From IMG/VR virus record IMGVR_UViG_3300025070_002730, positions 1-57,735 of that record: DNA of 57,735 nt; one strand, given 5' to 3'. A program made the position numbers and the translations under genes. The notes beneath the pieces were generated by a model. It was given only the letters and a program-made list of their open reading frames with translations. It did no database searches and was not told where the DNA came from. Positions 18,586 through 57,735 of this stretch are shown piece after piece. The number at the start of each line of letters is the position of its first letter. Position 1 is the first letter of the stretch. Origin of the DNA: a virus.

Positions 18586-18593
18586 TATTTATT
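18586..18593 (-). promoter_or_regulatory. Late-type promoter motif AATAAATA (+CAGT)
   Basis: On the minus strand AATAAATACAGT lies 18 bases before the ATG of the 203-residue gene. The same 12-base sequence occurs upstream of gp6 at 37213-37224. It resembles the T4 late core TATAAATA with one change at the first base. Two identical copies placed at the head of structural genes support a real promoter element more than either copy alone. Confidence 0.45.
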
Positions 18594-21500
18594 TGGGTAG
18601 CTCCACCTTTTCCGCCTTAAAGAAACGTGCTACCAAACTTTCCGCATCATTAAGTGAAATTCCTGGGTCTGTCCAGCGTTTTCCTTGTCTTCTGACAATT
18701 TTTATGTTAGCATTCACTGCTGGTGTATTTAACAGAATTACACTTGCTGTTGTGCCATCTACTGAAAACTCTGCTGGTGCTGTTTCATCAGCTTCGGGTG
18801 AGTCTTGATCTAATGTTGGATTAAACTGTTGTATTGCATTTTTACGTAATCGTTTGCCTGCAACAAATACTTCAAACTCATTTACACTGTTAGGAGTAAA
18901 TGCTAGTGGAAATACTGTTGTTGAGCCGTCACCTACTTGTTCATCTACAATAGTTTGGTCCATATAAGGTGCTGTTTGCATTGGTCCTTGATTGTATACA
19001 TCGCTACCTGCTTCGTGTATACTTGCAACACCAGTTCCTAGTGTTCCTCTTTGTATTTGACGTAACACATTACCTTGTTTAATCAAATATTCAATACGTT
19101 CACCATTAATAAACAAAATACCCGGAATACTACTGTTCTTATCAGGTTGACTTAGTTTGCTTGCATCGTCTAAGAATATTTCTTTATCAAGTGTTGCTAA
19201 ATCTTTTGCAAGTTTTAATGGTGCAACATCACCAAGTCGCTTATAAATGTTTCTGTTTAAAATATCTTTAAACTGACTAAATCCAAACTTAGGAGTAATT
19301 TCTCCAGTAGCACTAAATTGTATAACTTCAATTACATCATCATCTGCAAATGAACCGTTATATTTTACAAAGTTTCTATCATCTGTTAATTTATAATCAA
19401 CACTTGGTGTTTGTAGTATACCATTAATAGTTAACCAAACATATTGTGCATCAATTGCTGGATATCTTAATTTTACTAATCCTGCTTTAATATGATTAAA
19501 CTGTATATGATCTTCTGTACCTACAGCAATTACACTTCTTGCAACAATATCAAAATTCTGTCTTTCAAAATCCATACTGTCATGTTTATTAAATGTATAA
19601 ACTGTAAGTTTTTCGCCATCTGCTGGTGCAGTAGTCAACTGTAAATTTGATCCGCTGTCTACCCAAGAAGTTTGATTGTTAATAACTTGCACATCGCCAA
19701 ACGCATATTCGCCGTCAGTACGCAAGTAAACTTCTAAAATATCGCCTTCAGCTCCAATGCCTGGTTCAAGTATAACACTACTGTTTGCAGGACGTATGTT
19801 ATATTCAACTGCAATAGTAAGTGCCTTGCCATTAAGTAATACTAACAAGTCTGTGTTATCAAAACTACCAATTGGTGTTTGCCATATTTCTAAGAAATAT
19901 TCTCTTGCCGATGCTGTTACTGCAAACTGCTGGCTATATCCAGGATTTAAAATTTTATTTCCTTGCTTAACAATTACATTATGACTGTTAGGTAATGCAC
20001 TATAAGGAGTTGTTGCTAGATCAAATACTTTAGTACTTCCGTCACCAGTAAATTCTGTTGTTTCAATTTTACTAAATGAATCTACTGCTGTGTAAATTGC
20101 GTAATTGATTATACTATTGTCTGGTGGAGGACTACCAAATACAATCATTGCTTTTGGATCTTTGTCTGTACTGTCACCACTTGATGTTAGTACAGATTCA
20201 ACTGCTTCACCGTTAACAGTAGCATAATAATCTAGTTTCTTATCATAATGTACTTTAGTTATATAAGCAAGTGTACTGCCGTCACCTATAAATTCATTTT
20301 GCTCTAATGCATTTTTACCGTTGCCGCTGATTGATAAAATATTAATATCTTGGTTTACATTAGGTATTGTGTTGAATGTAACTGTTTTTAATCTGTAGTC
20401 TACTTTATATAAAGATTGTGATTGTATTATATCATTAACTTTAACAATCAAACCATCTCTGTTCTGTGGCTGTATACCAAAGTTATACGATCCTACTATA
20501 CCATCTGTTCTGTAGGAGTTACTTGATAATATACTGCCGCCGTCTTTTGGTCTGTGGAATACTCTAATGTTTACTGTGTCTAGCACCTGCCCTGGAACTT
20601 GTTCCTCAGGACCTTTTGATGTTGTTGGACTTATAAAGTCATCACCATCAATAATAATTTCTTCTGGGTTGATACCTTTTGCTGTACTAAATGCTAGGTC
20701 GCCGCCTGTTAGTACAGTATCATAAGATCTTGGATCTGGTAAAAACGCTCCGTCTGAAGTAGTTTTTCTAAATACTAGTATATCTCCTGGACCAGTTGAA
20801 ATAATATCTTCGTCAAATACAATTATGTCAGATGCTAAATCATCAGCATCATCATACAATGCAACTCCAGTTTGATTTGCACCTGTAATACTTGTCATCT
20901 TAGCGTTGACATTTTTTTGACTTGCTGTTCCGTAGTTAGGATCATCAATTCTTACACCGTTTTTATAAACATTGTAAACAGTTCCTGAAACTAACGGACT
21001 AGCAAAATTTAATACTCGTGTACTATCATCGCCAATTTGGAAAATTTCATCTTCAAACGTTGTATCAAATGTGTCATAAGTTGTTGTGAACCATTCGTCT
21101 GAATCCCATCCAGTACCTGTACCAAAATCAAAGCTACTTACTTCAACTCCGCCGTAGTCAATACCTTCCATTAACTGTCCGAGATCGTTTCCGTACATTC
21201 CAGTAGTTGGATTATAGTACAAATTAATTCTATCTTGTGCTTGTAGTAGTTCAGGTGCTTTATTATATGTAACAACAACTGTTTTGTTTACTGCAAGTGC
21301 ATTAGTAAATGTAATACGTCCTGAAGTTCGTGTATAACCTTTAGTAGTATCTTCAACATTACTAAATGCATATTCACTACGCAATGCTTCTAGTCCATCA
21401 ACTGTAACTTTAATTTCAGTCGCTTTTAGTTGTACTGGCCATTTTAAATTAAATATCTGTTGATCAATTGTTGAAGTAAATGTTTCAGTTTCGGCAAGTG

Positions 21501-24500
21501 TTTGGAACAAGTAAGTTCCTGTAACTCTATCAAACTTACATCTAATATGTGCTGATCTTGCTTTACCTTTGCCAAGTACAGGACTTAGTCTAGCAACTGT
21601 ACCAGTATCTCCAAATGACCCTACAATTTGTATAGTAGGACTTGTTAAGTAACCACTACCTGAATTTGTAACTTTAACACTTGTTACTTTGCCGTTAGTA
21701 CCAATAAATGCTTCTGCTGTTGCTCCTGTGCCGCTACCGCCACTAATAATAATCTTAGGTGGAACAGTATATCCCTGTCCTGCATCAGCAATGTTAAACG
21801 ATACAATTTCAAAGCCAACAGTATCAATCCAATGTTTACCTGGGTATGTTAAAACATTTGCATCACCTACAGAAATTTCACCATTAATAATTTTAACATC
21901 TTGTGGTATAATCTTTCCTTCTGAATCGCTATAGAAAGGTGAAAGATCAAAATCTGTTATAACATTACTTGCTGGATCAATCTTTTCATAAGAACTTAAA
22001 TATTCTCTAATTTTAGTCTTATAAGGTTTCATTTCCTCAACGTATTGTTGATAACTAGGTAAACTATCATTTTGGAAGGTAACTTTTTGTTGTAACTCAC
22101 CAATATTATGTTTTGCTTTTACAAAACTTGTCTTAAATACCCAATCAACATTTGGTTGTTCTGAGAACACATAACGTATACCTGCAAAGAATAATTCATT
22201 CCAATAAATTGCAAGATTATCTACGAAAATATCTGATTTTAAAATTTCAAGTATTTTTCTAAATTCTGTATTTGGTTCTGTATCATAAAATATTTTATCA
22301 AAACTTGCACCATCAAATGCTGTATTACTTGCATTAACATCATAGAGACTATTTTTAAATGCAATAGTTCCATTTTCTCTACCAATAGTTTGATAACTTA
22401 ATGTGTAATCTTGTGTATCTGCATTACTAATTTTTCTTAGTAATAGCCAACCGCCTGTACCAACATTATTAATTTTAATAATATCATCAATTTGATCATC
22501 AAGTGCATAAATTTCGTAACTAGAATCAATAGTATGGTTTACAAATGTAAACTGATTGTAACCCGGTGAATACCAATCTATATAATTCCAATATAAATTA
22601 ATATCGTAACTTTGGGTCAGTGTTCTTAAATATTCTGCGCCATCCCAGTGATATACGCTCCATTTGCCGCCAATAGTTTCATCACTCTTAACAAGTACTG
22701 CAAATTTTCTAATAGTAACTGCTACACTACTTGTATAATCTCTACCGCCGTTAACAATAGTAACGTTTGATATTGAGCCGTTGGCATCAAGTGTAAATTC
22801 TAATACTCCGCCGCTTCCGCCTGTGTCTGTAATTTTGTATGTAGGAACATTAATATATCCTGCACCAGCTTCATTAATTAACACATTAATGATTACACCG
22901 TTTTCAACTTCTAATGTTATACTAGCAGGTTTAACTCTAGCAACACTAACAAAACCTATTTCAGCATAACTATCTGATGTTGTGTCATACAATCCTGTTG
23001 CTAGTGTAGGCTGAGGATCAGACCCTGTTAATTTAGTTAAATCAAAATCATCGACAATTAAATGCTTGCTTAGAGATTTATTTGTTCTTTCAACAAACTG
23101 CTTACGTGCTTCTGTTCTATTTACAAACCAACTTTGTCTTGGTTCATTTAATGCACCATATTTTTCTTTAACTGGTAAACTAATATCTGGTACTGGTCTG
23201 TCATTCCTATCAAATCCAACTAAACTATCAAACCATTTTTGTTCAATTTCATTATTAGGTACACTTGTATCTAATCCGTCAGTTACTAGCTGATACTGAA
23301 GATGTGTTTGTTGTTGTTGATTTTCGATTGTCCACCAATTGAAACTAATTGCAGTATCTCTATCATTAATGAAAGATTCGCAGTTATGTAGTGCATATCT
23401 ATTAGATCCTAACATAGCAACAAATTTATAACCCAAACCTGCTGGATCTGTAATTAATCTTGTTACATTAGATGCACTTAGTGATCTATTTTCTACATTT
23501 GGAATTGTTGCTTTGTCTAATACCCAATAGTAATAATAAGTTGTAAATGTTTGTGATACTGTATCAAATTTTCTTCTGACACTGTATGCTCCGTCACCAT
23601 ATAATGTAGTTCCGCTGATACCTTGATTAAGTGCAGTTTCGTCACCGGTTTGTTCGTCCCATTGACTTGGTAATAATGTTGATTCTACCCATTCGTAAAC
23701 ATCTACTGTTGTTCCAGGGAAAAGTTTATTAAAGGTAGCAGTTGCTTCTGTAATATCACCTTGATGATGATTAATGAATCTAGCACTATCAATATCCCAC
23801 CATAACTTACCAATCCATTTATCACTTGTGTAATCTAAAGTGTGAGCAGTTATACCAGAAGCAGTTGTAGTATTTGAATATCTTGCTGGATCATAACTTG
23901 TTTTAAAAGTTAATTCTTGTTCTGCAGGTCCTGCAATTTTGCCTTGGATAGGATCAATGTAATCTAAGTATGTCTGTAAACTATTATCTTTTACATTGTA
24001 CAAATACACACCTTTAAACTTACTAGTATCTGCTGGTAATACTGGTTGTCTTGTAATTGCCCAAGATGTTGTGTTTACTGGTTTTCTATATTCTGCAACC
24101 ATACCTTTGTCAACTATACTACTGTTTGGTACTTGCTGTTTAGGTAACCCAATATAAACATGGTTATTACTTACAAGCATCCTACTACCAAAGTCTTGTG
24201 TATCTAAATCATAAGCAAAGTCTTGACTATATAGCAAAGTATTATTAACTGTTTCATATAAACTTACAACTCCACTTCCGCTGTCAATAATTTTAAATGT
24301 TGTTGAAGCATTATCTAATGAAGTACTGTTAGCATCAAATGTTGTTGATGTAATAATATCTCCACCTCTTGATGTAACTGCAAGAGTATTGCCATCAAAA
24401 TCTAATTTAGATCCAAATTGCGAATTAGGTTTAATTGTTGCAGGTCGAATAGTTTGACTATAACTAAATGTTGTTCCGTTTTGTGTATAAATGTATACTG

Positions 24501-27500
24501 CGCCAGCATTAGATTCTATTTCGCTATTTAATGGGGCGCCAATAGCAATTTTAGTACCATCAGCTGAAACTGCAATAGTAGTACCAAAGTCTTCTGTTTG
24601 ATTAAACGGTTCTAGTATTTGTGAATATTCATAACTTGAACCAGTAAGTCTATATACTACAACTTTTCTATTTGCAATACTACTATCTAAACCTAACGTA
24701 ACATCTCCTGATTCAATTTCATATACACTTGTATACATTGAATTAGCAACTAATACTTGACCATTATCGTTGACGTCAAAGTCTGTACCAAATGCTTCAA
24801 GATTGTTTTGATCAAGTGTACTTTCAACTAACGAGAAGTTTGTATCGTTAGGTACATATCCTAATAAATCTAGTCCGGTTGTTTGTGCAGTCCATTGACT
24901 AACATTAAATGTTCCTGGAATTAAATTAGTATTTGCTTTATATACTGTTTCACCAAATCTAACATATTCATTTTCAAAATAAGTTTCAGAACTTTTAAAG
25001 TTTCCTCTGTAGTTCTTTTGTACAGATAATGCCCAGTCTTCTGTAGAATTTTTATTTACAAAATATATTCTACCTTGATTATCTTCTGATCCATCACCTT
25101 GGGCATGAATGTAAAGTTTGTAACTATCTGAATCTGGTTGTACAAATCTTAATTTTGTTCCTAGCTGTCTGTTGTCTGCACTATTAGGAACTGTAAAGTA
25201 ATTAATAAGACTATATGTAACACCTTTAATTTCGTAGATTGCAAATGTGCCTTGCTCACTTAATCCTGTACCGTAACCCTCTGGAACTACAGGAAGGTTA
25301 TATACTCTTGTCCAATCTAAGTTAAGACTTGATGGAGGATTAGCAGTATCTGTAATACCTTCAATAGTGTTAGAAGAATAAATCCAGTACTCTAAATCTC
25401 TTAGATAATTTGCGCCGCCTACTACTACAGGAATGTTTGTTGCTGTATCTAATATTAATAATGGTCCTGAAACACTATTTTCCATTTGTGCTGAATTAAT
25501 AGGACCCATAGTTCTTACAGTTGAATCATTTTCAATAAATGTTGCATTTGAATTTGTACCAAAGTCTGATCCTACTGCCCAAGTGCCGTTTCTATTTTTA
25601 ACATAAATTTTTGCTGTAGCAAATGATCTTTCAATGTATGCAATTTCAGCTGTTGAACCTGTTGCAGTATCTGTTAATGTATCGCCAACATTTGGAATAA
25701 ACGGATCACCGTTCAAATCAAAGTTTGTTAATCTAACTTCTACATAACCATTCCATACATCAATTACAGTATGCTCTGTATCATTAATATAAGTTGATGT
25801 TAATCCAATAGCAGTTGGATCTTGCACTACTCCGTTAAGACGAATATCATTTAACCAAACTCTTGTCTTGTCACCTACACTAATACTGTTTCCGTGTTCT
25901 AACGGTGTTCTAATCCACCACTTGCTATCAAGCACTTGTACATTACTTTGTCCTTGTGTATGAGATAGTATTCCTAACTCTGAAACTTTAGTTGGATTAA
26001 GAATATTTTGTAGTTGTTTAGTATCTAAAATATTACTAAAATAAGGATCGTTAACTACATTACCTTCTAGTGTAATATTTTGTATTACTAGATTTGCATT
26101 TTTCTCTGTAAGCTCTGTTGAATTAAATGATGAACCAACATCAATATACCACCAACCTGTATGATAATCATCAGTAATTTGAAGTACTTCTTCATATTCT
26201 CCAACTAGAATGCCATTGGCATATATTGAACCTGATCCTGTAAATGCTCCGTTTACATTTTTAATATAAACTTGCATCTCGTTTTCATTATTAATTCTTC
26301 TATAGGCTAGTGTTGCTCTACAAGTATCTGTAGTAATTTCTGTGCCAGCGTCAGGAACACTTAATGCACTTTGAATATGTACAATGTGTTGTACTTTATT
26401 AGCAATAGTGTGTTGACCATTTAATAATGATTTAGTAAGTGTACTATCGTTGTTAAATGGTAGCGTACCTATTTGATTTGATGTTGTATATTCATTCCAT
26501 TTAAGAGTTAATATATCACCTATCTTAGTTCCTTCAAACTGTTCTTTTTCTGCTCTAACTAAAATATGATCTGTATCTGAATCAGCGCCTAATGTATAAT
26601 CGCCTCTTACAATATATTCAATTTCTGGATAGCTCTGCGTATCGCTTATGTAATCATTACCTTTAGATTGGGCGTTGGATGAATGATTTTGATACAACTG
26701 TAATGCATCAGCTTCAATGTTCCTTGCCGCTTTCCATAACTGATTTGAATATAGTACAATATCGTTCTGTACGTAAGAAATACTATTTTCAAAATCACCT
26801 TTTAATTTGCTTTTAACATTTGAAGCATGTGGCGAGCCAATTGCAAGATACTTGCCATCTGGGCTCATTGCAACACTTTGGCCAAATCCGCCATTTGAAT
26901 CAAACAAGAATAGTTGCTCGTCAATCTGTTGTATGAAACCAAATTCAGTATTATCACTAGGTCTTTGATAAACGTAAACGCTACCATTTAAATCTTTAGG
27001 CGCAGTAATTGCAATACGATTATTATTTTTTGTTACACTAAACGCACTACCAAAATCTTTTTCAGTTGAGTCTAGTAAACCTGCCGCGGTATTAATAATA
27101 TTAGGTTTTAATTCAAAAACTTGTTTATTTTTAAGTACAATCCATTTACCAGTATCATCGTCATCAACCCAAATTGTATTAGTTGCATTATTGTTTCCGT
27201 TTAAACTAAACAGGTTGTTTGGATCTTTCTTGATACTATCGTTAGCAAGTGATAGTGTAGATAGTCTTGCTTTTTTAAATTCAGTAATGAATCCATTTAC
27301 ATCGGCATTGTCTTCTGTTGCTTCAACATCTTCGCCTTCAACTGATGCTAGTTTAACAACATTAAGCTCAATACTGTTAACTTTATAATATCCGTTAGTT
27401 GCATCTGATATATCATGAATACCAATAATATCACCTTTTGTAAAATCAGCCTGTTTATCTAAAGTAATTGTAAATATATTTTGTTGGCTTTCAGTTACTG

Positions 27501-30500
27501 CTGTAATTCGATAATCTGTTGATTGGGTTTTATACACTCCCCATGTTTGTTGGCTTTTATCTGTAGCAGTCCAAATATAGCTACCTGAAGCATACAAAGG
27601 TTGATCTAAGATAGCATCATATGATGCTAATGATGCTGTAACATCTAAAGGATTAACATACCCTGCTGTTTTAATATAACTGTTGTCATCATTAAAATAT
27701 TTTGTTGGTAAGGGCTTATGATCATAATTGTCAGGTTTAACGTATACACCGTTTCTATCTAATCTATAAATTAAACTTGTATCTTGTGGATTAATTACAT
27801 CAACTAACTCGATCAGCTGTGGCTCTTGTCTATATTTTGCTTCGTCAAGTATAAGATCAAACTGTTCGTCGCCTGTTGTTGCTCCATAACGTCCTGCACG
27901 TATAGCCCATTCTTCATAAAACTCTAAACTATCTTTGTTAGCACTTCCTAATTTATCAAACAGTTTTGTAAGAACATTTCGTGTTCCTTTGTCTTGAATA
28001 GCACCTTGATAGAACTTAAATTGACTTACATCATCGTTAATGATATTTTCAAGATACTTACGTTTTTGATATCCAGTTAGATGTTGTGCTAACTTTTGTT
28101 GTTCCATATCAAAGTTATCAGAATCAAGATCGTAAAAATCTGCAAACTGTCTTGCTTTATAATCAAAGTTAGGTAGTAATTGTTGTTCTGGTTTTTCGTT
28201 TAATCTTACCCAGTTTGAATCTACAAACTTTTCTGTTCCTGTTACATTCTTAGTAGCAACATAATAAAATTGTTTGTGTTTTACTAATGCGCCAATTGAG
28301 TAATCTTGCCAAGAAACCCATTCAGTTGGTTTTGCATCATCAAAAATAAATCCTGGGATATTATATGAACCATTCCATTCATCTGAGCGATATCCTTTAA
28401 CTTTAATTCTTTCTTGTCTATAACCTTGAGCTCTATTATAAATTACATCACCAAATACTGTATTGTTATCAATAATGATTGCATGTTCATGTTGTACTAC
28501 AGGAATCTTAAGATGATATATTCCATCATTTGTATTTCTTACAAAGATTCCAAACTCGTTTGTATTATCACGCTCAGTTGTTGCAAAATCTGCAAGCAAT
28601 CGTTTACCGTCTGCTTTTAATAAACTATAATCATAAAAGTTATCATATATATCGTCAACAACAGTGTATTCTTTTGTAAATTCAATTTGTCTTGCACTTG
28701 GACTTAGTGTAAGAATAGTTCCACTATCCCAAGCCTGTGTAGTCCAGAATAAAAATTCTTTTGCACTCAGTACCCAATTTTCAATTTCTTCAATCTCTTG
28801 ATTAAAATTATTGAATTTAAATCCTGCTGTTTTTAAATATTCTTGGTATCCTAGTAATAAATCAACTACATCTTGTTTTTCTCTAAGCAATGTTCCATAT
28901 TGCATTTCTTGTAGTTCTTTTGCATAGTTAGTTGAGACGTATGCTGATGCACCACCTTCTTCTGGTAGTTCAGCTAATTTTTGAAAATTGTCTTGATTAA
29001 ATGCGTCACCTGCTGTATGAGAAACTTTAACTCTAAAATAAGAGTCAGCTACTTCAACAATCTGTCCTGATTCATATGTTTTTCCTGTTGTCCAAGTTAA
29101 GAAGTTTTCACTTACTCCACCAACATTAATTACTTGGTCGCTATTTTTTCTTCTTACAGGATAATATTTAAACACAGGATTATCTTTATCATATCCTTTT
29201 ACAATGTATCCACCTGGAGCAATTTCAATTATAACTCCGCTATAAGAATATACATCTAAAGGAATACTTTTAGTTAAATGTATTTTATAGTTTTCCTCTG
29301 GTACAAAAACATTACCTTCATTTGTTGGTGTTCTTGAATCTAATATTAATTTAAATTTTGACTTTTGTGTAAATCCGCCAATTTTAGATCCTAGTTTATT
29401 TTCGATTGCTTTTAAATTATTTGCATATTCAGTAAATCTAAGTGTATCATTATCAATTAAGTATCCTTGCATATAATTTACAATACCTGCTGTAAATACT
29501 CTTGCTGAATCCGTTGCACTATTTGGAAATACTAATTTATCTAATTCAATACGCTTACTTGTATCTTTATATACTAATTGGTTTGCACCGTTACGTACAA
29601 TTCTACTTCTGTCAAACGCTAATCCAAAAAACTGTGCTGGTTGATTTAACGCCCATGAAATCATTAAACTAAATGGATAGTGTGAACTTCTACGCCATGC
29701 AGTTTCTACAGGACCTTCGTCGCCAAATGCAAATTCGTTACCATTAGTAGTAGGAATGTTTCCTACAGCATAACCTGTGTCACTTGGTGCTAATAAATCT
29801 CCGTTAGCGTCAACTGGAATATATTTGTAAATATCTTCGTTTTTAAACTTGTTTCTATATGTTACCTTTGAACCTTCTGCACCTCTTACAATACCTTTAG
29901 ACAAATCTTCCCAAAGTAGTAAGTTATTACTTGTGTACGGTGCTGAACCGTATTCGTCATCAAACCAAGTTGGCTTTTCTTTAAATCCAAGTATTTCCCA
30001 CGGATGACTGTGTGGTCTATCTGTGTTATAGAAGTCTTTATAAATTGATCTCCAAAAACCTGTTAAAGGATTTCCATTTGGATCTCCTGCTGATGCATAG
30101 TTGTATGTGAATCCATCGCCGGATCTATAAATTGTATTAGATACATAGTCTGGACTACCAACAGTTTCTAACCAATTATTAAATTCAGATATCATTGTTT
30201 TAGAAACTTGTCTTCTAGTAAATCCTGTAGTTCTAGCTTTGCTAGGAATATAATCTACAATATCTAAGATATTTTCGTTATAAGGAAGTTTTAGATTATT
30301 GTAAATTCTTTTTTCAAGATCTAATAATAAGTTGTCTCTAAAGTCTCCAAAACATCTCCACAAAGATCCATCGTGTCCTTGCAACATTGGTTTTGCGCCT
30401 TCATACTCAAAATATGTTTGACTATCATTAGTAGCATGATTCATTGTGCCGTTGGGCATATAAAATATTTTGTTAGATCCTGCAAATACATGTGTATGTG

Positions 30501-33500
30501 CTGTTCCGTTACCACTATTTCTTAAATCTTCTTGTTGTGCAGATACTTCATCTGTATACAAAGGATAGAACCAACCAAGTTTGCCTTTGTAAGACTTAGT
30601 TGTTGTTTCGTCTCTGCCATATACTTTCCAAGGACCTGTACTATCTGTTGGTGTTTTGATATAAGTATCGTCTAAAAATATTTCAGGAGTAAACTTAGGA
30701 TACAATCCTAACTTAGTAGGAGTGGGCGGAACCCAACAACCATCAGTTGAAACATATTCATAAACGTCTAATACATCTCCAGCACTTGGAGCATTTAACA
30801 ATGTTAAAAATCCATCTGCACTAACTGTATAATCTTTATTAAGTACTAACTGTTTTTCATTTAGGTATGCTAATACTGCTTTTTCAGATAACGTTGTAAA
30901 GTCAATACCATTTGCTAGTGAAAATATTGTTTGTGACCCATCTTCAATTGCATGTCTTACTGTTGTTTCGCCACCGTGTGCTAACATATCACTAAAGTAA
31001 AATGCATCGCTATTAGTTTTGCTTGAATTAAGTTCAGTAAGCACCTTGTCAACGTGTACTTTATCAGTTCCTTCAAATCCAAGTTCGTTTGCTATTCTTA
31101 AAAATTCTCTTTTAAATTTAATATATTCAAAGCCTGACCATTTCATTGCCTCGATAGCATCATAGTCTTTATCTGTTAAATTATATAATGCAAGGTTAAT
31201 TGGTCCACTATGTTGTACAAATTTTAATCCGTATTTTGATGAAGCACCTAGATCACGTAGATTACTAACACCTGGATATACTCCTTCAAATCCGTTTATA
31301 TTATCAACAATACTATCAACATGGTCTAATACTTCGCCTAGTGTAAATGTTGTAACATTTTCGTTTTGTGGATTTTTTTCAAAGTTAATTGGAAATTCGT
31401 AATGCCCTAGCCCATCTACTTTTGGCGCACTAGATGTTGTTTTTAAAACAAGTTTATCAGATTCAACTAAGTCTGTATAAAATGCAACATATGCGTAACC
31501 GTTTATTCTATTAATTGTATAATCGACACCGTCATATTTACGGACACTGTTTACATAAACTTTAACATCTAAATCATTTAAATTACCACTGTTCAAATAA
31601 ACATCAACAATAAAATTATTTGTTCTTTCTAAAACTGTAAATTGCTCTACTACAGGTTGTTTAGATTTAGTTAATGCTTTAGTCCAACCTGATTCGTTAG
31701 TATAAGAAGTTCTGTCAGTATACTTTCTTAGTAATGCTGTATCAGTACTAACTGTAAGTACATCTACTGTCTCGTCATATTGATAAGTGTCTGCTAGTAG
31801 ATTAAAATCAAAAACAATGTCACCACTATTTTCAATAGTTCTATAACTTAACGGAAATCCTAATTCTGTATCATTTGTACCTGTACCAACTTTATAACTA
31901 AACACTTTGTTGCCAATAAATGTACTTGAATCTAGTGTAGAAAGTTGTGCTCCAGTATCGTCATATAAATCAAATAATGGTTGTTGATTAACTTTTATTT
32001 TATCTTGTGTTTGTTTCCAAGTAGTACCGTTATAGTAAAAGATCTTACCTTTAAAATTTGTACCTGCTTTTACAAGAACTGTTTCATTTTCTAATGGAAC
32101 AGCATCTGTAGTTTCTTTAAGTGCAATTTGAACTTGTCCGTTTTGACTAATAAAACTAACTTCATAAATTTTACCAGCAACAAAACTATCTGGGTCTGCT
32201 GTAAATAATACACGCATTCCTGATACAAGCTCAACACCGTCAACAAAATAACCTGCTTGTCCTTCAATGTCTGAAAATACATCTTTAGTAACTGTATCAA
32301 CTAAATCAACTGATGTTTTTGACTGTGTTCCAAAATTGTAAAGTTTTAGGCCTGCATCAAATTCAATAATTGGTCTTGTAGCTCTATAAGTTTGATCTAA
32401 TTCTACAGGAACATTGTTAATTTTGGCAACAGTTTCAATAACACTTTTATGTGTCCATTTATTATAACGTGACCACTGATTACTATCTTTAGACGATCTA
32501 TTAATAACAATATAGTCTTTTAGAGTAGCATAAGAAGTAGCGTCTCCAAATGGTAGTGAAGCAAATCCTTGTGCATCAAATTCAGTAGATACATCTGACA
32601 AATAGTCAGCAGTAATAACTAAGTCTTCTTCTGCTATTAATGTAATAGATTCGCCAACGCCTTCAACATACCAATTACCTTCACCGTACTTAGCTGGTGT
32701 AATTGTTCCGTAAAACTTAACTTTCATACCATTGGTTAATTCATAACCATTTTGCATAGTATAAGTTTTTTTGCCAACGATTTCGTTACCTACATTAAGT
32801 TTTGTATTGTCTCTAATATCTCTTATAATAATAAGTCCTGATGTTTCAATATCATTTCCGTTTGTGTAATATAAAGCATCGGGTGATTCTAAATCAATTG
32901 TCCAAGTTATTGTACCTTGTTCAACTTTTTGCTGGCTTACTCCAGTACTATATAAGTTTGTATCATCATCAATACTATTACTAGTTCTAATGCTAAAGGG
33001 CATATCAACAGCATCTATATCAAAATTATATGTTTGCCCTCTATATAAAGTAATTGTTGGATTGCTTACTTTGTTTTCTTCGCTAAAAATATAAGAATTA
33101 TTATCTACATTATCTTGACGCTTTACTGCGAACGTGCTAGTAATATTTCGTGCAGTTCCGTAAACAGGAACTTCGTTAGGTCCTGCGGGTAACCAGTAGT
33201 ATTCTCTAAAATTTACAAACTTATCCCAGTTGATGTGTGGGTTCCAAGCATAGTATTCTTGCGAATTATATAAACTATGATTAGCGTTATCTGTATTTCT
33301 AATTTTACTACTGTTTATGTAATCTCGATAGTCACCGTAGTAAGTTGTATTACCTAAGTTATCTGTAACTGTTGCAACAGGTTCTAGTTGATAATTTTCT
33401 CTGTCAGCTGAAACATCAGAAACATAATTATCAGTAGACTTAAATGCTTTTGAATCTCTACGTCCAATATAGCCGTCGATCTTTTCAATTGACCCAGGCT

Positions 33501-33630
33501 GAGTTAGCTGATCAATTGTACTACTTAGAAACTTCTTGTTTGCTGTTGTTCTAAAATATCTTGGTAGTAAATCAGCTGTTCTTCTTTTTGCATCCCCGCT
33601 TGTTGGGATTGGACTTTCATCTTGTGCCAT
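18589..33630 (-). CDS. Giant virion/baseplate-associated protein, 5013 residues
   Basis: One uninterrupted reading frame of 15 kb. The N-terminus (ADLLPRYFRTTANKKFLSST, then YRDYINSSK, NPHINWDKFVNFREYYWLPAG) looks like a particle-attachment region. Around residues 2190-2270 and 3010-3150 are FG-GAP-like blades (FGQSVAMSPDGKYLAIGSPH; FGTTIAVSADGTKIAIGAPL; FGSKLDFDGNTLAV), suggesting an interrupted beta-propeller. Residues near 3590 and 3950 carry G-x-GY-x-x-P-x-I-x-I-x-GGSG motifs. From about 4440 on, modules begin with a GDGST box (near 4442, 4525, 4893), with a related copy near 890. The gene starts on the last base of gp6 and takes the place where T4 has gp7/gp8. Whether it is a gp7 counterpart, a fused fibre network or a side appendage is not decided. 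Confidence 0.85.
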   Translation of the reverse strand: MAQDESPIPTSGDAKRRTADLLPRYFRTTANKKFLSSTIDQLTQPGSIEKIDGYIGRRDSKAFKSTDNYVSDVSADRENYQLEPVATVTDNLGNTTYYGDYRDYINSSKIRNTDNANHSLYNSQEYYAWNPHINWDKFVNFREYYWLPAGPNEVPVYGTARNITSTFAVKRQDNVDNNSYIFSEENKVSNPTITLYRGQTYNFDIDAVDMPFSIRTSNSIDDDTNLYSTGVSQQKVEQGTITWTIDLESPDALYYTNGNDIETSGLIIIRDIRDNTKLNVGNEIVGKKTYTMQNGYELTNGMKVKFYGTITPAKYGEGNWYVEGVGESITLIAEEDLVITADYLSDVSTEFDAQGFASLPFGDATSYATLKDYIVINRSSKDSNQWSRYNKWTHKSVIETVAKINNVPVELDQTYRATRPIIEFDAGLKLYNFGTQSKTSVDLVDTVTKDVFSDIEGQAGYFVDGVELVSGMRVLFTADPDSFVAGKIYEVSFISQNGQVQIALKETTDAVPLENETVLVKAGTNFKGKIFYYNGTTWKQTQDKIKVNQQPLFDLYDDTGAQLSTLDSSTFIGNKVFSYKVGTGTNDTELGFPLSYRTIENSGDIVFDFNLLADTYQYDETVDVLTVSTDTALLRKYTDRTSYTNESGWTKALTKSKQPVVEQFTVLERTNNFIVDVYLNSGNLNDLDVKVYVNSVRKYDGVDYTINRINGYAYVAFYTDLVESDKLVLKTTSSAPKVDGLGHYEFPINFEKNPQNENVTTFTLGEVLDHVDSIVDNINGFEGVYPGVSNLRDLGASSKYGLKFVQHSGPINLALYNLTDKDYDAIEAMKWSGFEYIKFKREFLRIANELGFEGTDKVHVDKVLTELNSSKTNSDAFYFSDMLAHGGETTVRHAIEDGSQTIFSLANGIDFTTLSEKAVLAYLNEKQLVLNKDYTVSADGFLTLLNAPSAGDVLDVYEYVSTDGCWVPPTPTKLGLYPKFTPEIFLDDTYIKTPTDSTGPWKVYGRDETTTKSYKGKLGWFYPLYTDEVSAQQEDLRNSGNGTAHTHVFAGSNKIFYMPNGTMNHATNDSQTYFEYEGAKPMLQGHDGSLWRCFGDFRDNLLLDLEKRIYNNLKLPYNENILDIVDYIPSKARTTGFTRRQVSKTMISEFNNWLETVGSPDYVSNTIYRSGDGFTYNYASAGDPNGNPLTGFWRSIYKDFYNTDRPHSHPWEILGFKEKPTWFDDEYGSAPYTSNNLLLWEDLSKGIVRGAEGSKVTYRNKFKNEDIYKYIPVDANGDLLAPSDTGYAVGNIPTTNGNEFAFGDEGPVETAWRRSSHYPFSLMISWALNQPAQFFGLAFDRSRIVRNGANQLVYKDTSKRIELDKLVFPNSATDSARVFTAGIVNYMQGYLIDNDTLRFTEYANNLKAIENKLGSKIGGFTQKSKFKLILDSRTPTNEGNVFVPEENYKIHLTKSIPLDVYSYSGVIIEIAPGGYIVKGYDKDNPVFKYYPVRRKNSDQVINVGGVSENFLTWTTGKTYESGQIVEVADSYFRVKVSHTAGDAFNQDNFQKLAELPEEGGASAYVSTNYAKELQEMQYGTLLREKQDVVDLLLGYQEYLKTAGFKFNNFNQEIEEIENWVLSAKEFLFWTTQAWDSGTILTLSPSARQIEFTKEYTVVDDIYDNFYDYSLLKADGKRLLADFATTERDNTNEFGIFVRNTNDGIYHLKIPVVQHEHAIIIDNNTVFGDVIYNRAQGYRQERIKVKGYRSDEWNGSYNIPGFIFDDAKPTEWVSWQDYSIGALVKHKQFYYVATKNVTGTEKFVDSNWVRLNEKPEQQLLPNFDYKARQFADFYDLDSDNFDMEQQKLAQHLTGYQKRKYLENIINDDVSQFKFYQGAIQDKGTRNVLTKLFDKLGSANKDSLEFYEEWAIRAGRYGATTGDEQFDLILDEAKYRQEPQLIELVDVINPQDTSLIYRLDRNGVYVKPDNYDHKPLPTKYFNDDNSYIKTAGYVNPLDVTASLASYDAILDQPLYASGSYIWTATDKSQQTWGVYKTQSTDYRITAVTESQQNIFTITLDKQADFTKGDIIGIHDISDATNGYYKVNSIELNVVKLASVEGEDVEATEDNADVNGFITEFKKARLSTLSLANDSIKKDPNNLFSLNGNNNATNTIWVDDDDTGKWIVLKNKQVFELKPNIINTAAGLLDSTEKDFGSAFSVTKNNNRIAITAPKDLNGSVYVYQRPSDNTEFGFIQQIDEQLFLFDSNGGFGQSVAMSPDGKYLAIGSPHASNVKSKLKGDFENSISYVQNDIVLYSNQLWKAARNIEADALQLYQNHSSNAQSKGNDYISDTQSYPEIEYIVRGDYTLGADSDTDHILVRAEKEQFEGTKIGDILTLKWNEYTTSNQIGTLPFNNDSTLTKSLLNGQHTIANKVQHIVHIQSALSVPDAGTEITTDTCRATLAYRRINNENEMQVYIKNVNGAFTGSGSIYANGILVGEYEEVLQITDDYHTGWWYIDVGSSFNSTELTEKNANLVIQNITLEGNVVNDPYFSNILDTKQLQNILNPTKVSELGILSHTQGQSNVQVLDSKWWIRTPLEHGNSISVGDKTRVWLNDIRLNGVVQDPTAIGLTSTYINDTEHTVIDVWNGYVEVRLTNFDLNGDPFIPNVGDTLTDTATGSTAEIAYIERSFATAKIYVKNRNGTWAVGSDFGTNSNATFIENDSTVRTMGPINSAQMENSVSGPLLILDTATNIPVVVGGANYLRDLEYWIYSSNTIEGITDTANPPSSLNLDWTRVYNLPVVPEGYGTGLSEQGTFAIYEIKGVTYSLINYFTVPNSADNRQLGTKLRFVQPDSDSYKLYIHAQGDGSEDNQGRIYFVNKNSTEDWALSVQKNYRGNFKSSETYFENEYVRFGETVYKANTNLIPGTFNVSQWTAQTTGLDLLGYVPNDTNFSLVESTLDQNNLEAFGTDFDVNDNGQVLVANSMYTSVYEIESGDVTLGLDSSIANRKVVVYRLTGSSYEYSQILEPFNQTEDFGTTIAVSADGTKIAIGAPLNSEIESNAGAVYIYTQNGTTFSYSQTIRPATIKPNSQFGSKLDFDGNTLAVTSRGGDIITSTTFDANSTSLDNASTTFKIIDSGSGVVSLYETVNNTLLYSQDFAYDLDTQDFGSRMLVSNNHVYIGLPKQQVPNSSIVDKGMVAEYRKPVNTTSWAITRQPVLPADTSKFKGVYLYNVKDNSLQTYLDYIDPIQGKIAGPAEQELTFKTSYDPARYSNTTTASGITAHTLDYTSDKWIGKLWWDIDSARFINHHQGDITEATATFNKLFPGTTVDVYEWVESTLLPSQWDEQTGDETALNQGISGTTLYGDGAYSVRRKFDTVSQTFTTYYYYWVLDKATIPNVENRSLSASNVTRLITDPAGLGYKFVAMLGSNRYALHNCESFINDRDTAISFNWWTIENQQQQTHLQYQLVTDGLDTSVPNNEIEQKWFDSLVGFDRNDRPVPDISLPVKEKYGALNEPRQSWFVNRTEARKQFVERTNKSLSKHLIVDDFDLTKLTGSDPQPTLATGLYDTTSDSYAEIGFVSVARVKPASITLEVENGVIINVLINEAGAGYINVPTYKITDTGGSGGVLEFTLDANGSISNVTIVNGGRDYTSSVAVTIRKFAVLVKSDETIGGKWSVYHWDGAEYLRTLTQSYDINLYWNYIDWYSPGYNQFTFVNHTIDSSYEIYALDDQIDDIIKINNVGTGGWLLLRKISNADTQDYTLSYQTIGRENGTIAFKNSLYDVNASNTAFDGASFDKIFYDTEPNTEFRKILEILKSDIFVDNLAIYWNELFFAGIRYVFSEQPNVDWVFKTSFVKAKHNIGELQQKVTFQNDSLPSYQQYVEEMKPYKTKIREYLSSYEKIDPASNVITDFDLSPFYSDSEGKIIPQDVKIINGEISVGDANVLTYPGKHWIDTVGFEIVSFNIADAGQGYTVPPKIIISGGSGTGATAEAFIGTNGKVTSVKVTNSGSGYLTSPTIQIVGSFGDTGTVARLSPVLGKGKARSAHIRCKFDRVTGTYLFQTLAETETFTSTIDQQIFNLKWPVQLKATEIKVTVDGLEALRSEYAFSNVEDTTKGYTRTSGRITFTNALAVNKTVVVTYNKAPELLQAQDRINLYYNPTTGMYGNDLGQLMEGIDYGGVEVSSFDFGTGTGWDSDEWFTTTYDTFDTTFEDEIFQIGDDSTRVLNFASPLVSGTVYNVYKNGVRIDDPNYGTASQKNVNAKMTSITGANQTGVALYDDADDLASDIIVFDEDIISTGPGDILVFRKTTSDGAFLPDPRSYDTVLTGGDLAFSTAKGINPEEIIIDGDDFISPTTSKGPEEQVPGQVLDTVNIRVFHRPKDGGSILSSNSYRTDGIVGSYNFGIQPQNRDGLIVKVNDIIQSQSLYKVDYRLKTVTFNTIPNVNQDINILSISGNGKNALEQNEFIGDGSTLAYITKVHYDKKLDYYATVNGEAVESVLTSSGDSTDKDPKAMIVFGSPPPDNSIINYAIYTAVDSFSKIETTEFTGDGSTKVFDLATTPYSALPNSHNVIVKQGNKILNPGYSQQFAVTASAREYFLEIWQTPIGSFDNTDLLVLLNGKALTIAVEYNIRPANSSVILEPGIGAEGDILEVYLRTDGEYAFGDVQVINNQTSWVDSGSNLQLTTAPADGEKLTVYTFNKHDSMDFERQNFDIVARSVIAVGTEDHIQFNHIKAGLVKLRYPAIDAQYVWLTINGILQTPSVDYKLTDDRNFVKYNGSFADDDVIEVIQFSATGEITPKFGFSQFKDILNRNIYKRLGDVAPLKLAKDLATLDKEIFLDDASKLSQPDKNSSIPGILFINGERIEYLIKQGNVLRQIQRGTLGTGVASIHEAGSDVYNQGPMQTAPYMDQTIVDEQVGDGSTTVFPLAFTPNSVNEFEVFVAGKRLRKNAIQQFNPTLDQDSPEADETAPAEFSVDGTTASVILLNTPAVNANIKIVRRQGKRWTDPGISLNDAESLVARFFKAEKVELPK

Positions 33631-49349: not shown

Positions 49350-49866
49350 GCAAGCCAATACAGCACATAAGGATAGCGGGCCAGATAGATAATTCCGCTG
49401 TGAAAGGGTGGCATGAAAACCACACACGTAACATATTGATTCATACGAACCATAACGATCAATATAGGCTAGTTGCTGTTAGTCAAGAACCACAATGTTC
49501 ATAAAAACTCTTTAGCAATAGGAACGAAGCGAGAGGTAATGTATTATAAACTGCACATTAACTTAGTTAATGTACTCTTTATGTTACATATGTCGACGTA
49601 GGTTGGGAAAGGTCAGAGCCCATTGAACAGTGAAAATACCTATTTCCGAATCTCGGCTGTGACGAACTCACATGAAGTGTCAAGATTAGATGGAACCACT
49701 AAACAGGTTCCGTCTGACTGAAACAATCTACATGAAGCAATTACAATATTACTACGTAATATTGCTTTAATTCATATCTATTAATTCTATCAACAAACGA
49801 AGTGTTATAGTTTGAGCGTAAGCGATAAACTAATTGTTACGAAGTAACAATTCTAATTGTTTTTAT
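49350..49866 (+). ncRNA. Candidate structured RNA or hairpin-rich intergenic region
   Basis: No convincing ORF lies here. At least nine base-paired elements can be read directly: 49373-49379 with 49395-49401 (one G-U), 49408-49411 with 49420-49423, 49433-49440 with 49458-49465, 49555-49562 with 49566-49573 (8 pairs, TTA loop), 49606-49612 with 49639-49647 (two-base bulge), 49658-49662 with 49668-49672, 49688-49697 with 49706-49715 (10 pairs, one G-U), 49744-49752 with 49756-49764 (9 pairs, TAC loop), and a hairpin at 49808-49832 with a GTAA tetraloop next to a tandem GA/GA step. A GNRA loop and G-A pairs point to RNA. I do not recognise a known RNA class. Confidence 0.4.
49832..49866 (+). terminator. 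Possible terminator at the end of the hairpin region
   Basis: A perfect 9-base stem (49832-49840 with 49844-49852, GAA loop) is followed about seven bases later by a run of five T. The stem is AT-rich and the gap to the T run is longer than ideal. If functional it would close transcription of the gp55-gp47-gp46-GIY-YIG unit before the minus-strand gene at 49934-50119. Confidence 0.4.
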
Positions 49867-49933: not shown

Positions 49934-50119
49934 TTAGTGTAGATCAGGATCTCTTCCAAAACCCGACTTAACACTACTAACTTCAAATGATTCATATCTG
50001 AGCTGTAGATGAGGCTGTGTATCACGCATTGTTTCTATATATTGATGTACTTCGTCAATACTGTTTACAATTTCAATCTCATTATCGAGATTGTCTAGTA
50101 TTCGATATCTTGTAATCAT
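49934..50119 (-). CDS. Small hypothetical phage protein
   Basis: A 61-residue protein: MITRYRILDNLDNEIEIVNS, IDEVHQYIETM, and a C-terminus SSVKSGFGRDPDLH. The regular alternation of strands and helix gives a plausible small alpha/beta fold, and the codon use is like its neighbours. It stands alone on the minus strand between two plus-strand units. The ribosome site is weak. I know of similar short proteins in marine T4-like phages but no function. Confidence 0.6.
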   Translation of the reverse strand: MITRYRILDNLDNEIEIVNSIDEVHQYIETMRDTQPHLQLRYESFEVSSVKSGFGRDPDLH

Positions 50120-50155: not shown

Positions 50156-50163
50156 TATAAATA
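50156..50163 (+). promoter_or_regulatory. T4-type late promoter (TATAAATA)
   Basis: AGTATAAATATAAT contains an exact TATAAATA core, 22 bases upstream of the ATG of the 257-residue gene, with CGGGAGC as ribosome site. It implies late expression of that gene, in line with a virion or head-associated product. Confidence 0.65.
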
Positions 50164-50184: not shown

Positions 50185-50958
50185 ATGAACGTACATGACA
50201 TTTTATCTGAATCTAAACAAGTTGACGAAGGTCCTATTAGATTTATGAAAAGAACACTAGGAAAAAACACAGCTATGGGCAAGGCCGCACAGTTAGATGT
50301 TGAACTAGATAAAGAAGTTGCAAATATTTACAAAGATTATTATGCAGTAAGTAAGCAAGACCCTAAACTACAAGGTATGACAGCTAAAGGTTTAGCTAAC
50401 TTTCTTGTTGCAAAAGGTTTTGTAAGCAAACCTAGTGCAGTAATGCAGTACATCAATCAAGAACCTAGTCTAGGTAGAAAAGCGGCTAAAGCAGGTAAAA
50501 AAGTTGCTAAAGGCGCTAAAGCGGCCGCAGGCGCGGCTAAGTCCGGAGCAAGCAAAGTAGGACAAGCGGCAAGCAAACTAAAACAAAAACTTTCTCCACA
50601 AGCATCAGGACTAACACCAGATCAACCTAATCTCCCAGGTATTGAATCTATGTATAGTGAATCAAGATTAAATGAAGTAGATGTACAATTATCAAGTGGA
50701 CAAGCTAAGAAAATTATCAAACGTTTTGTTCAACAAGGTTTTCAAAAACAACTAGGTGGTAGAGTTAATAAAAGTTCTTATGGCGATGCAGGCGCACAAG
50801 ATTCAAAAACTAGCAAGGCACAAGCAAGCACAAAGACTGCTAGTAGTAACAGTGATGCTAAAGATATGGCTACTCCAACAATGGATGTTAAGTCAGCAAT
50901 TAAATTCTTAAAGTCACAAGGTTATACTGTAACTGCACCTAAAAAAGTAAAAGCCTAG
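50185..50958 (+). CDS. Histone-like Lys/Ala-rich protein, candidate packaged internal protein
   Basis: A 257-residue basic protein. Residues 98-136 are almost entirely Lys, Ala and Gly with a little Ser (AAKAGKKVAKGAKAAAGAAK), like the tail of histone H1, and would bind DNA. The first 20 residues (MNVHDILSESKQVDEGPI) carry VDE-G at 13-16, and LNE-V appears near 164. Both resemble the L/I-x-E cleavage sites of the T4 prohead protease gp21. The C-terminal 30 residues (AIKFLKSQGYTVTAP) form a small helical domain. A late promoter precedes it. Packaging into the capsid with processing is an inference. An alternative is a DNA-condensing or anti-host protein. Confidence 0.7.
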   Translation: MNVHDILSESKQVDEGPIRFMKRTLGKNTAMGKAAQLDVELDKEVANIYKDYYAVSKQDPKLQGMTAKGLANFLVAKGFVSKPSAVMQYINQEPSLGRKAAKAGKKVAKGAKAAAGAAKSGASKVGQAASKLKQKLSPQASGLTPDQPNLPGIESMYSESRLNEVDVQLSSGQAKKIIKRFVQQGFQKQLGGRVNKSSYGDAGAQDSKTSKAQASTKTASSNSDAKDMATPTMDVKSAIKFLKSQGYTVTAPKKVKA

Positions 50959-50974
50959 TCTTACCAAAAAGGCT
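50952..50974. terminator. Weak hairpin between convergent genes
   Basis: AGCCT (50952-50956) can pair with AGGCT (50970-50974) across the stops of two convergent genes that are only two bases apart. On the minus strand the hairpin is followed by TTTTACTTTTTT. The stem has just five pairs, so this is a weak candidate. Confidence 0.3.
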
Positions 50975-51176
50975 GTCCAATTTCTTTGGCAGTATCTAAA
51001 TTCTCTTTAATGATATCATTTAAGATTAGGGTATCCTCACGACATAGTAAGTATGCGTCATTAAGTTGAATACCACCACGGAACCACCAAACTAGTTTCA
51101 TAACACTATGTTTGATTTCTTTTACCTCGTTTTCGAGGACCTTAACCTCGCTTAGGATTTTGTCGAGGCTCCACGT
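50961..51176 (-). CDS. Small protein downstream of gp26, non-ATG start
   Basis: An open frame of about 72 codons directly follows the gp26-like gene. The translation (SLDKILSEVKVLENEVKEIK, then MKLVWWFRGGIQLNDAYLLC, ending AKEIGQPFW) looks like real protein: an amphipathic helix, then a WWFRGG segment. There is no ATG at its head. AAGGA is followed five bases later by ACG at 51176-51174, a rare start codon, and an in-frame ATG at 51101 would give only 46 residues. An upstream in-frame TAA limits other choices. In T4-like phages a small baseplate-hub assembly gene often accompanies gp26, so a hub assembly role is possible. Confidence 0.5.
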   Translation of the reverse strand, partial: TWSLDKILSEVKVLENEVKEIKHSVMKLVWWFRGGIQLNDAYLLCREDTLILNDIIKENLDTAKEIGQPFW

Positions 51177-51184
51177 TAAGATCC

Positions 51185-52171
51185 TTAGCCGAAAAAATTA
51201 CTCTGATCGAATGTAATTGGTATTTCGTAGGTCTTACTAGCACCTGCTTCAATTTCTTCAGGAGTTGCTTCTACTACTAACGGCTTTTGCTCAAATCGTT
51301 CTTTTTGAGATTTGATATAATCAGCAATTTGATTATATGTTTTTGCTTCAGCACCTTCTAAAAATTCTTTTAGATACTTTGGATTAGTAACAGCTTCTTC
51401 TGCACCATCAGGTTGAATAGCAACTACATTAGCAACAACTGCATTAATATTAATATCAGTTAACTTTGCAAAACTTTTTTGAAAACGTTCTAGTTTGACA
51501 GTTTCATCAATGCTGTCATCGTTAACTGTAGTAAAAATACGCTGTTCCTCAAATGCTTTAATAGCTTGTTGAGTAACCATTCTGTAACTAGCTGGTTTTA
51601 TTTGAACTCTAAAGCCATCAATTTGAAATGTATCAGTGTATTCTGTATTAGTTAAGTTGTCGTAAATTGTTTGCAAATCTAATTGAAAGTCTTTAGTTAA
51701 GTTAGTTCCTGGAACAGTAGAAGACATATCAATCTTCTCTCCAAAACTAGCCATTCTAATAGCAACTAAAATTGCATCTAAGTCAATACTAGGAGTGTGC
51801 CAAGCGTCTTTAATGTTTGGCATACAACTTTGAATAACATCAACAGTTGCTTGACCGTTTAATAATGCATCTGGTGTTTTAAACGTAATCTCATCTTTGG
51901 CAGTCATTGCATATACAGGATATTCACCTGTTTCTGTTTTCTGCAATGCATTCTGCGGCCAGTATTGCCCTTCACTAGGTAACTTTACATAAATCTTAGG
52001 TTGTCTTAAATGTTTTATTAATGGGTTACCAGCCGGCTGTTGTACCGGTACTGGTTGAGCTTGCATCGGCGGCATCGGCGGTTGTGCCGGATTTTTTGCT
52101 GACGGTTGCTGAGGCATACCCATCTGCATGCCTTGATTTCCCATGTTTGGTGGGACATTATTATCTACCAT
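51185..52171 (-). CDS. 26: gp26-like baseplate hub assembly protein
   Basis: A 328-residue protein of the T4 baseplate (gp26) family. After a Gln/Pro/Met-rich N-terminal 50 residues comes the core IYVKLPSEGQYWP, then EYPVYAMTAKDEITF, TPDALLNGQATVDVIQSCMP and IDLDAILVAIRMASFG. These are typical of this family, which acts in hub assembly and resembles tape-measure chaperones of other tailed phages. T4 gp26 is 208 residues; the extra length is in the N- and C-termini. It lies divergent from the tape-measure-like gene. A late promoter is 40 bases upstream and GGAG precedes the start. Confidence 0.8.
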   Translation of the reverse strand: MVDNNVPPNMGNQGMQMGMPQQPSAKNPAQPPMPPMQAQPVPVQQPAGNPLIKHLRQPKIYVKLPSEGQYWPQNALQKTETGEYPVYAMTAKDEITFKTPDALLNGQATVDVIQSCMPNIKDAWHTPSIDLDAILVAIRMASFGEKIDMSSTVPGTNLTKDFQLDLQTIYDNLTNTEYTDTFQIDGFRVQIKPASYRMVTQQAIKAFEEQRIFTTVNDDSIDETVKLERFQKSFAKLTDININAVVANVVAIQPDGAEEAVTNPKYLKEFLEGAEAKTYNQIADYIKSQKERFEQKPLVVEATPEEIEAGASKTYEIPITFDQSNFFG

Positions 52172-57288: not shown

Positions 57289-57735
57289 ATGGCAGACAAT
57301 AAATTAGAGCAAATGCTCGAAAAACTTGTCAATAACGATCGTGCTGGAGCAGATGAACTGTTTCACGAATTTGTTATTGAAAAGTCACGTGGTATCTATG
57401 AAAAGATGCTAGAATCAGATTTAGAAGATCTTGACGAAGTTAAAGACGAAGAAGTAGATGAAGCGTCAAATGACGAAGAAACTAACGAAGCTTCAGATGA
57501 AGAAGTAGATGAGTCTTCAGACGACGAAGAGACTAACGAAGCAACAGACGAAGAAGTTGACGAAGCTACTGACGAAGAAGTAGACGAAGCTTCAGACGAA
57601 GAAGTTGATGAAAACTTCGACGAAATTACACCAGAAGCTGACCCAATGGGCGGCGACGCGGCTGACGATATGATGGCAGACATCGAAGCAGACGACGAAG
57701 AAGGTGAAGACGGCGATATGGACGGCGATGAAGAA
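57289..57735 (+). CDS. Acidic prohead core/scaffold protein, partial (gp67/gp68-like)
   Basis: An open frame from ATG 57289 runs off the right edge (149 codons visible). The N-terminus MADNKLEQMLEKLVNNDRAG, then FHEFVIEKSRGIYEKMLESD, is the pattern of T4-like prohead core proteins, which begin with a short helix and KS-x-GIYE. After residue 45 comes a long acidic repeat made of DEEVDEAS/DEETNEAT units, then Gly/Asp-rich sequence. Scaffold proteins are usually acidic and are cut up by the prohead protease. The place after the portal is right for gp67/gp68. TAGGAG is six bases upstream. Confidence 0.8.
   Translation, partial: MADNKLEQMLEKLVNNDRAGADELFHEFVIEKSRGIYEKMLESDLEDLDEVKDEEVDEASNDEETNEASDEEVDESSDDEETNEATDEEVDEATDEEVDEASDEEVDENFDEITPEADPMGGDAADDMMADIEADDEEGEDGDMDGDEE
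57439..57610 (+). repeat. Acidic 24-base repeat array in the core protein gene
   Basis: About seven imperfect units of roughly 24 bases encode (D/N)EE(V/T)(D/N)E(A/S)(S/T). Units such as gacgaagaagtagacgaagc recur with synonymous changes, so the repeat is kept at protein level while the DNA has diverged. Copy number may vary between relatives. Confidence 0.8.

Follow-up and report, generated by a model that had tools for sequence, protein, structure and literature searches.

The locus considered here raises the question of what a 257-residue protein, encoded ahead of a baseplate gene and under a late promoter, does in its phage: whether it is packed into the head with the DNA, condenses that DNA in the manner of a histone, or belongs to the prohead scaffold or to the tail. 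The DNA analysed (hereafter, the window) is the whole of the IMG/VR virus record IMGVR_UViG_3300025070_002730, 57,735 bases, positions 1 to 57,735. Its source is an uncultured T4-like virus of bacteria, probably of marine origin, the marine setting being taken from its phage relatives.

The gene, its neighbours and its relatives

Around the gene under study (the target), the following features were read:

49590..49740, plus strand: conserved noncoding RNA of about 150 nt, marking the locus, between the SegE-like gene and the target
50156..50163, plus strand: T4-type late promoter TATAAATA, 29 nt before the target ATG
50185..50958, plus strand: coding sequence of a putative CTS-tagged internal head protein, 257 aa (ORF exact; distinct relatives in 53 IMG/VR loci)
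51185..52171, minus strand: T4_baseplate gene (PF12322, Pfam E 3.2e-11), downstream border of the slot that holds the target

The target sits in a T4-like module composed of a gene at the gp47 position and a gp46-like gene, a SegE-like GIY-YIG gene, the target itself, the baseplate gene on the minus strand, a gene whose 772-aa product (p772) weakly matches a structural protein, and the portal gene. The portal protein of the window has 2,487 INPHARED matches, all below 60% identity, the top-ranked ones belonging to jumbo phages of the T4-like kind, among them Atu_ph07, Phosso and GAP32, and the gp46 of the window is nearest to that of Pseudomonas phage Paride and its kin (about 49%).

Relatives of the target were collected by two overlapping IMG/VR searches (37 and 52 loci), which gave a working set of 53 loci with 35 distinct proteins, one of them identical to that of the window and 34 with an intact N-terminus. 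The gene order around the target is the same in 53/53 loci, as far as the neighbours are present. An earlier note on this DNA had described the gene as driven by a late promoter, and TATAAATA is indeed found upstream of the ATG; of the loci of the 35 distinct proteins, 30 have it unchanged and four with a single differing base, L110 being without its 5' end.

The target protein gave no INPHARED match at E ≤ 1 (T4 internal proteins included), no Pfam family at E ≤ 1, and a single weak PHROG match (0.036). A sequence search against solved structures returned nothing below E 1.2, and tblastn of three members of the family against INPHARED left two without matches. Judged by titles, the literature search found no report of this slot or of this protein family.

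Several matches were set aside. Those obtained with profiles for the target and 16 relatives were weak and scattered and were attributed to chance: in Pfam, PASTA in six proteins (best 0.018), GemA in four (0.002) and dockerin in two (0.00037); in PHROG, phrog_11519 in four (0.027) and phrog_28557 in one (0.00035). The remaining tblastn query, L032, retrieved microvirus and Listeria-phage matches only, at E 0.4 or worse.

Some other frames of the window may be recorded here. A small antisense ORF of 61 aa (49934-50119, minus strand) lies between the RNA and the target, and was detected in 45 of the 53 relatives' loci. At 50961-51197 (minus strand) there is a 78-residue open frame with no clear start, containing WWFRGGIQ, which looks by eye like Phosso gene 319 and like frames adjoining the baseplate gene at other loci. 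Elsewhere, a QueC-like match is followed by five genes with radical-SAM matches (1077-8156, minus strand), and a single ORF encodes 5,013 aa (18589-33630, minus strand).

Protein layout and predicted cleavage sites

The protein can be divided as follows, all coordinates being on the plus strand:

50185..50211: residues 1-9, MNVHDILSE, CTS-like tag with a predicted cut after E9 (L7 and E9 invariant in 34/34; compare T4 IPII and IPIII)
50212..50229: residues 10-15, SKQVDE, spacer with a second predicted cut after E15 (E15 in 34/34)
50230..50472: residues 16-96, conserved helical N-domain (from conservation; AlphaFold pLDDT 61 for residues 16-103)
50473..50601: residues 97-139, Lys/Ala/Gly-rich segment (from composition), net +12
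50602..50676: residues 140-164, acidic linker (net -3) ending in LNE164, third predicted cut (E164 in 34/34)
50677..50955: residues 165-257, basic C-terminal fragment, net +11 (charge count)

In the available part of PMC9026906, gp21 of T4 is described as cutting after L/I-x-E. Two sets of 34 distinct proteins, which differ by one protein, were read, one set for sites 1 and 2 of the target and the other for site 3. Site 1, D[IV]L[TVAS]E9/[SNTA] (the slash marks the predicted cut), shows no exception to L at P3 and E at P1 (34/34), and MKVYDILTE/S or MKVYDVLTE are common starts in the relatives. Site 2, [VTLI][DN]E15/[GLF], has the Glu in 34/34, with V (27), T (five), L (one) or I (one) at P3; site 3, [LIV][MNLT]E164/[VAQL], likewise has the Glu in 34/34, with L (23), I (nine) or V (two) at P3, while P2 and P4 vary. 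The spacer between sites 1 and 2 is short (6-10 residues) in 33 proteins; in L011 it reaches 53 through a long insertion, and both sites are kept, which is the pattern expected of an expendable propeptide.

It should be said that two [LI]xE triplets, as found in the target (LSE9 and LNE164), are unremarkable in a single sequence: shuffled versions average 0.75, and among 20,000 of them 17% have two or more, and 6% have one in residues 3-25. The case for the sites therefore rests on their conservation. In the earlier note, VDE-G and LNE-V had been singled out as gp21 sites. Both are present and LNE-V fits L/I-x-E, whereas VDE-G lies off the strict T4 rule; LSE9, the best match to that rule, was absent from the sites named there.

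The head proteins of the lineage bear on this point. In a survey of 12 records, several of them partial, gp21 (PF03420) was over the cut-off in six and gp23 (PF07068) in six; the window ends before both genes. Of the six gp23 proteins two were read, and in both the propeptide ends in YLAE, where T4 has LTE65. At its end the window holds a further relevant feature:

57289..57735, plus strand: gp67-like prohead core protein, acidic, cut by the window end (tandem VDE/TNE units; likeness to T4 gp67 by eye)

This core protein was also examined in L004, L005, L012-L016 and L022. Its units of about 8 residues, [VT][DN]E-A.., form a putative array of protease sites, whose copy number varies among relatives. 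Of eight core proteins in which the units were counted, seven have VDE-A, 2-5 times each, the contig stopping within two of those seven; four core proteins have TNE-A, and L012 has LDE-T instead. Site 2 of the target and its relatives likewise most often reads VDE or TNE, and this sharing of motifs suggests that the gp21 homologue of the lineage tolerates V or T at P3. The two motifs do not co-vary in L022, where site 2 is TNE and the core has VDE and no TNE. Given the same motif in the core protein, VDE-G would be a plausible cleavage site in the lineage of the target. Both predicted fragments are basic, one of 149 residues (net +14) with the Lys/Ala/Gly-rich segment as its tail, the other of 93 residues (net +11).

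The conserved RNA and the variable slot

Across 13 sequences selected through homology of the protein, the RNA hardly varies. Over 106 distinct sequences, in which a 31-base core is invariant by selection, a branched structure is predicted; changes such as A-U to G-U fit the plus strand only, and true covariation is little. No match was found in Rfam, and one weak match (E 0.9) in INPHARED.

A search of IMG/VR with the exact 31-base core found it in at least 120 stretches, 80 of them among the matches listed, where 78 RNA loci were read; L117 and L121 are the contigs of L026 and L005 of the target search. Among the matches listed, SegE lies upstream of the RNA in 74/78 loci, relatives of the target follow the RNA in 5/78 (L117 and L121 included), and 40 of the 48 loci bounded by a baseplate gene hold an ORF of at least 100 aa between the RNA and that gene; of the eight bounded loci without such an ORF, seven have 520-644 nt in its place and L142 (814 nt) has a 77-residue open frame. 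The 56 slot ORFs among the matches listed fall into 22 body clusters; as these may conceal distant homologues and one cluster is a second gene, there are at most 22 independent first-gene bodies. An earlier clustering of slot proteins, which had merged 68 of 88 through low-complexity sequence, was replaced by the present one.

The start of the slot proteins was examined with the [LI]xE rule taken from T4. With longest-ATG starts, the triplet occurs within residues 3-25 in 18 of the 22 slot clusters and in 10 of 53 control families (p=5e-7), the latter including reverse-strand ORFs that are possibly not genes. A CTS regex, drawn after seeing the data, matches 15/22 slot clusters and 0/53 controls. 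An earlier run, with another start rule and controls chosen to have a ribosome site, gave 18/20 against 10/25 for [LI]xE and 17/20 against 0/25 for the regex; L162 and L176 were left out of it, as they were of the ORF scan for tag and promoter. Its start rule missed the N-termini of L162, L168, L170 and L176, which the longest-ATG rule mends; the latter misreads L179 and L180 and picks the second gene in several loci (e.g. L134, L147, L167), and these rows are kept in the 56. L157 is a further locus that does not fit the tag pattern. A late promoter precedes 24 of the 56 slot ORFs. When nine sequences were scanned with a stricter tag regex, two unrelated starts also matched; no ORF other than the target combines this N-terminus with a late promoter in the window (31 ORFs) or in a 167.5-kb relative (113 ORFs).

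Nine slot proteins and one second-gene protein gave nothing over the Pfam cut-off and no PHROG at 0.01; the second-gene protein of L164 had no INPHARED match at 0.01, and the slot protein of L120 had one weak INPHARED match at 0.05. In Atu_ph07, GAP32, Phosso and Paride, the ORFs inspected in the syntenic stretch included none that by eye resembled a tagged cargo.

Two further observations concern the contents of the slot. Between the slot gene and the baseplate gene, a second gene was found in L125, L134, L135, L147, L150, L153, L156, L164, L167, L169, L173, L177, L184 and L187; where complete, its product has 591-941 aa, with a tag-like start of the kind MKLQEVTAYNLKSQAILTES..LTE and LTE sites. 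In addition, seven of 20 slot-cluster representatives (L116, L124, L132, L143, L178, L186, L188) have a hydrophobic 19-residue stretch with a mean hydropathy of 1.9 or more, and these proteins are possibly a membrane-acting cargo.

The slot can differ between close relatives. L165, L168 and L176 are 94.9-96.3% identical in gp46 and 97.1-98.6% in SegE, and their slot bodies have no blastp match to one another at 0.01. Apart from such cases, most nearly identical phages retain homologous slot proteins. In a pairwise comparison of slot bodies, with L157, L179 and L180 left out, homologous slot proteins are kept in 7/9 pairs at a gp46 identity of at least 95%, in 1/2 at 90-95%, 5/12 at 85-90%, 21/116 at 80-85% and 81/566 at 70-80%. 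Between L168 and L176, with gp46 and SegE 96-97% identical, the baseplate genes are only 37% identical and the portal genes 76%, so that the exchange of the slot took in its neighbour; an apparent recombination border thus lies at the SegE/RNA side of the slot. SegE, as a relative of homing endonucleases, might drive the exchange.

Function of the protein and of the slot

From these sequence comparisons, we consider it likely that the target is an accessory, CTS-tagged internal head protein of the T4 type, which a gp21 homologue would cut into two basic fragments and which may be ejected. That the protein is packaged in the head and cut there had been proposed in the earlier note, and the proposal now has indirect support from the CTS-like start and the three conserved Glu sites, and further from the gp21, gp67 and gp23 homologues in relatives and from what other phages hold at the same place.

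The closest known proteins are IPI-III of T4. T4 tags are short and begin MK-x-[YF] (IPII and IPIII start MKTYQEFIAE), as many relatives of the target begin MKVY; they end in Glu with L or I at P3 (in IPI, T-E after ITE19); the mature part is basic, with a net charge of +2 to +10 in T4 and of +14 and +11 in the target fragments; and diverse bodies stand behind a conserved tag, as the available part of PMC3012670 describes for T-even phages. For IPIII, PMC9026906 reports, in the part available, that the first 10 residues are sufficient for packaging, and that targeting depends mainly on residues 4 and 7, processing on residues 8 and 10. There are differences as well. The tag of the target is one residue shorter than those of IPII and IPIII (9; the T4 propeptides range from 10 to 19), and the target has an extra conserved site (E15) and an internal one (E164). 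One tagged gene was seen per sequence scanned here, against three ip genes in T4; it stands at a fixed place beside a conserved RNA, and has a TATAAATA promoter of its own, whereas the T4 ip genes have no TATAAATA within 60 nt. T4 Alt, likened here by description only, is also CTS-tagged and, according to the available part of PMC9026906, cut at both ends, but the target has no ADP-ribosyltransferase or other Pfam domain. The inner head (ejection) proteins of phiKZ and SPN3US likewise have propeptides cut after Glu by a gp21-related protease, although, in the parts of PMC9026906 and PMC5694885 available, these are mostly much longer and have other P3 residues (S/A in phiKZ).

It appears unlikely that the target is a histone-like architectural protein, chiefly condensing the phage DNA in the head. 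The Lys/Ala/Gly-rich segment pointed out in the earlier note is real (residues 97-139 have 26% Lys, 30% Ala, 14% Gly and no aromatics), and its net charge of +12 would suit such a role. The N-domain may have a histone fold: its model (pLDDT 61) retrieves almost only histone-fold chains, the best with Z 6.9 and rmsd 5.4 over 72 residues, but helical models give such Z scores without kinship, by the structure-comparison tool's own caveat, and the full-length model has calmodulin as its best match (Z 5.9), its third-ranked match being a histone-fold chain. For the two AlphaFold models (pLDDT 56.7 and 61.1), the best Foldseek E-values were 3.4 and 2.4 in PDB, where all were above 1, and 0.91 in a viral library. 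Profiles of histone families, linker histones included, find nothing in the target, in 16 relatives or in 28 N-domain fragments, so that a relationship to histone H1, as hinted at by the label given in the earlier note, has no support except a likeness in composition. Moreover, other phages have at this slot no such protein or a hydrophobic one (7/20 cluster representatives).

Somewhat less probable still is a basic component of the prohead core (scaffold) like T4 gp68, which would balance the acidic gp67-like core, be cut by the protease and leave the head. The target is basic, K/A-rich and has several predicted cuts, and the C-terminus of gp68 is strongly basic (K/R-rich) with LxE triplets; in L016, by eye, no gp68-like gene lies between the core and protease genes; and the target is present in 53/53 loci, albeit by construction, as these were found by homology. 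However, T4 gp68 has no CTS-like start, and gene 68 lies between 67 and 21, whereas the target is upstream of the baseplate, p772 and portal genes. Among the matches listed, 8/48 bounded loci have no ORF of at least 100 aa and others hold non-homologous ones, unlike what is expected of an essential scaffold, and peptides that leave the head would be expected to be smaller than the predicted fragments (149 and 93 residues). On the processing of gp68 itself the sources, each available in part, conflict: it is uncut in a table of PMC9026906 and cut according to PMC5694885.

The least probable alternative is a tail-lumen or baseplate-linked protein, its N-terminal motif serving tail assembly instead of head targeting: the slot adjoins the T4_baseplate gene, whose median identity is 58% in the 72 pairs with homologous slots and 34% in the other 523, gp46 (81 vs 78) and gp20 (77 vs 73) being similar, but this co-variation, which can mean a functional tail link, can also mean that adjacent genes are exchanged as one piece (L168/L176: gp46 96%, baseplate 37%), and the motif fits the head protease rule, the core protein sharing that of site 2.

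As an internal head protein, the target would be expressed late, and its first 9 residues, MNVHDILSE, would act as a capsid-targeting sequence, docking it on the prohead core. A gp21-type protease would then cut after E9 and/or E15, freeing the protein from the core, and a further cut after E164 would yield the two basic fragments. Both would remain inside the head, bound to the packaged DNA by their charge, and would possibly or even probably accompany it into the host. DNA may be held by the Lys/Ala/Gly segment; in the available part of PMC3012670, only lysines of the T4 internal proteins are reported to be seen contacting DNA phosphates. The slot would be a place for cargo: elsewhere in the clade it would be occupied by different proteins with a tag of this kind at their start, or left empty, and such variability fits accessory host-takeover or counter-defence proteins like IPI-III. 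A counter-defence role of the target itself is a guess by analogy with IPI, made reasonable by the swapping of the slot.

More tentatively, a large uncultured clade of marine T4-like phages may carry a cargo cassette, consisting of the conserved RNA, an exchangeable late gene with a prohead-address code of about 9-20 residues that is cut off there, and a co-varying baseplate gene. If this is true, capsid-delivered effectors would be predictable from the N-terminal code, and the SegE/RNA boundary would be the point of cassette exchange. If the target is an internal head protein, a cleavage code that includes V or T at P3 can be offered for a gp21 relative far from T4, and head addressing and trimming in the style of T4 would operate in an uncultured and apparently widespread lineage. 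One locus would then list uncharacterised proteins that are likely injected at infection, and would be a place to seek counter-defence and host-takeover functions.
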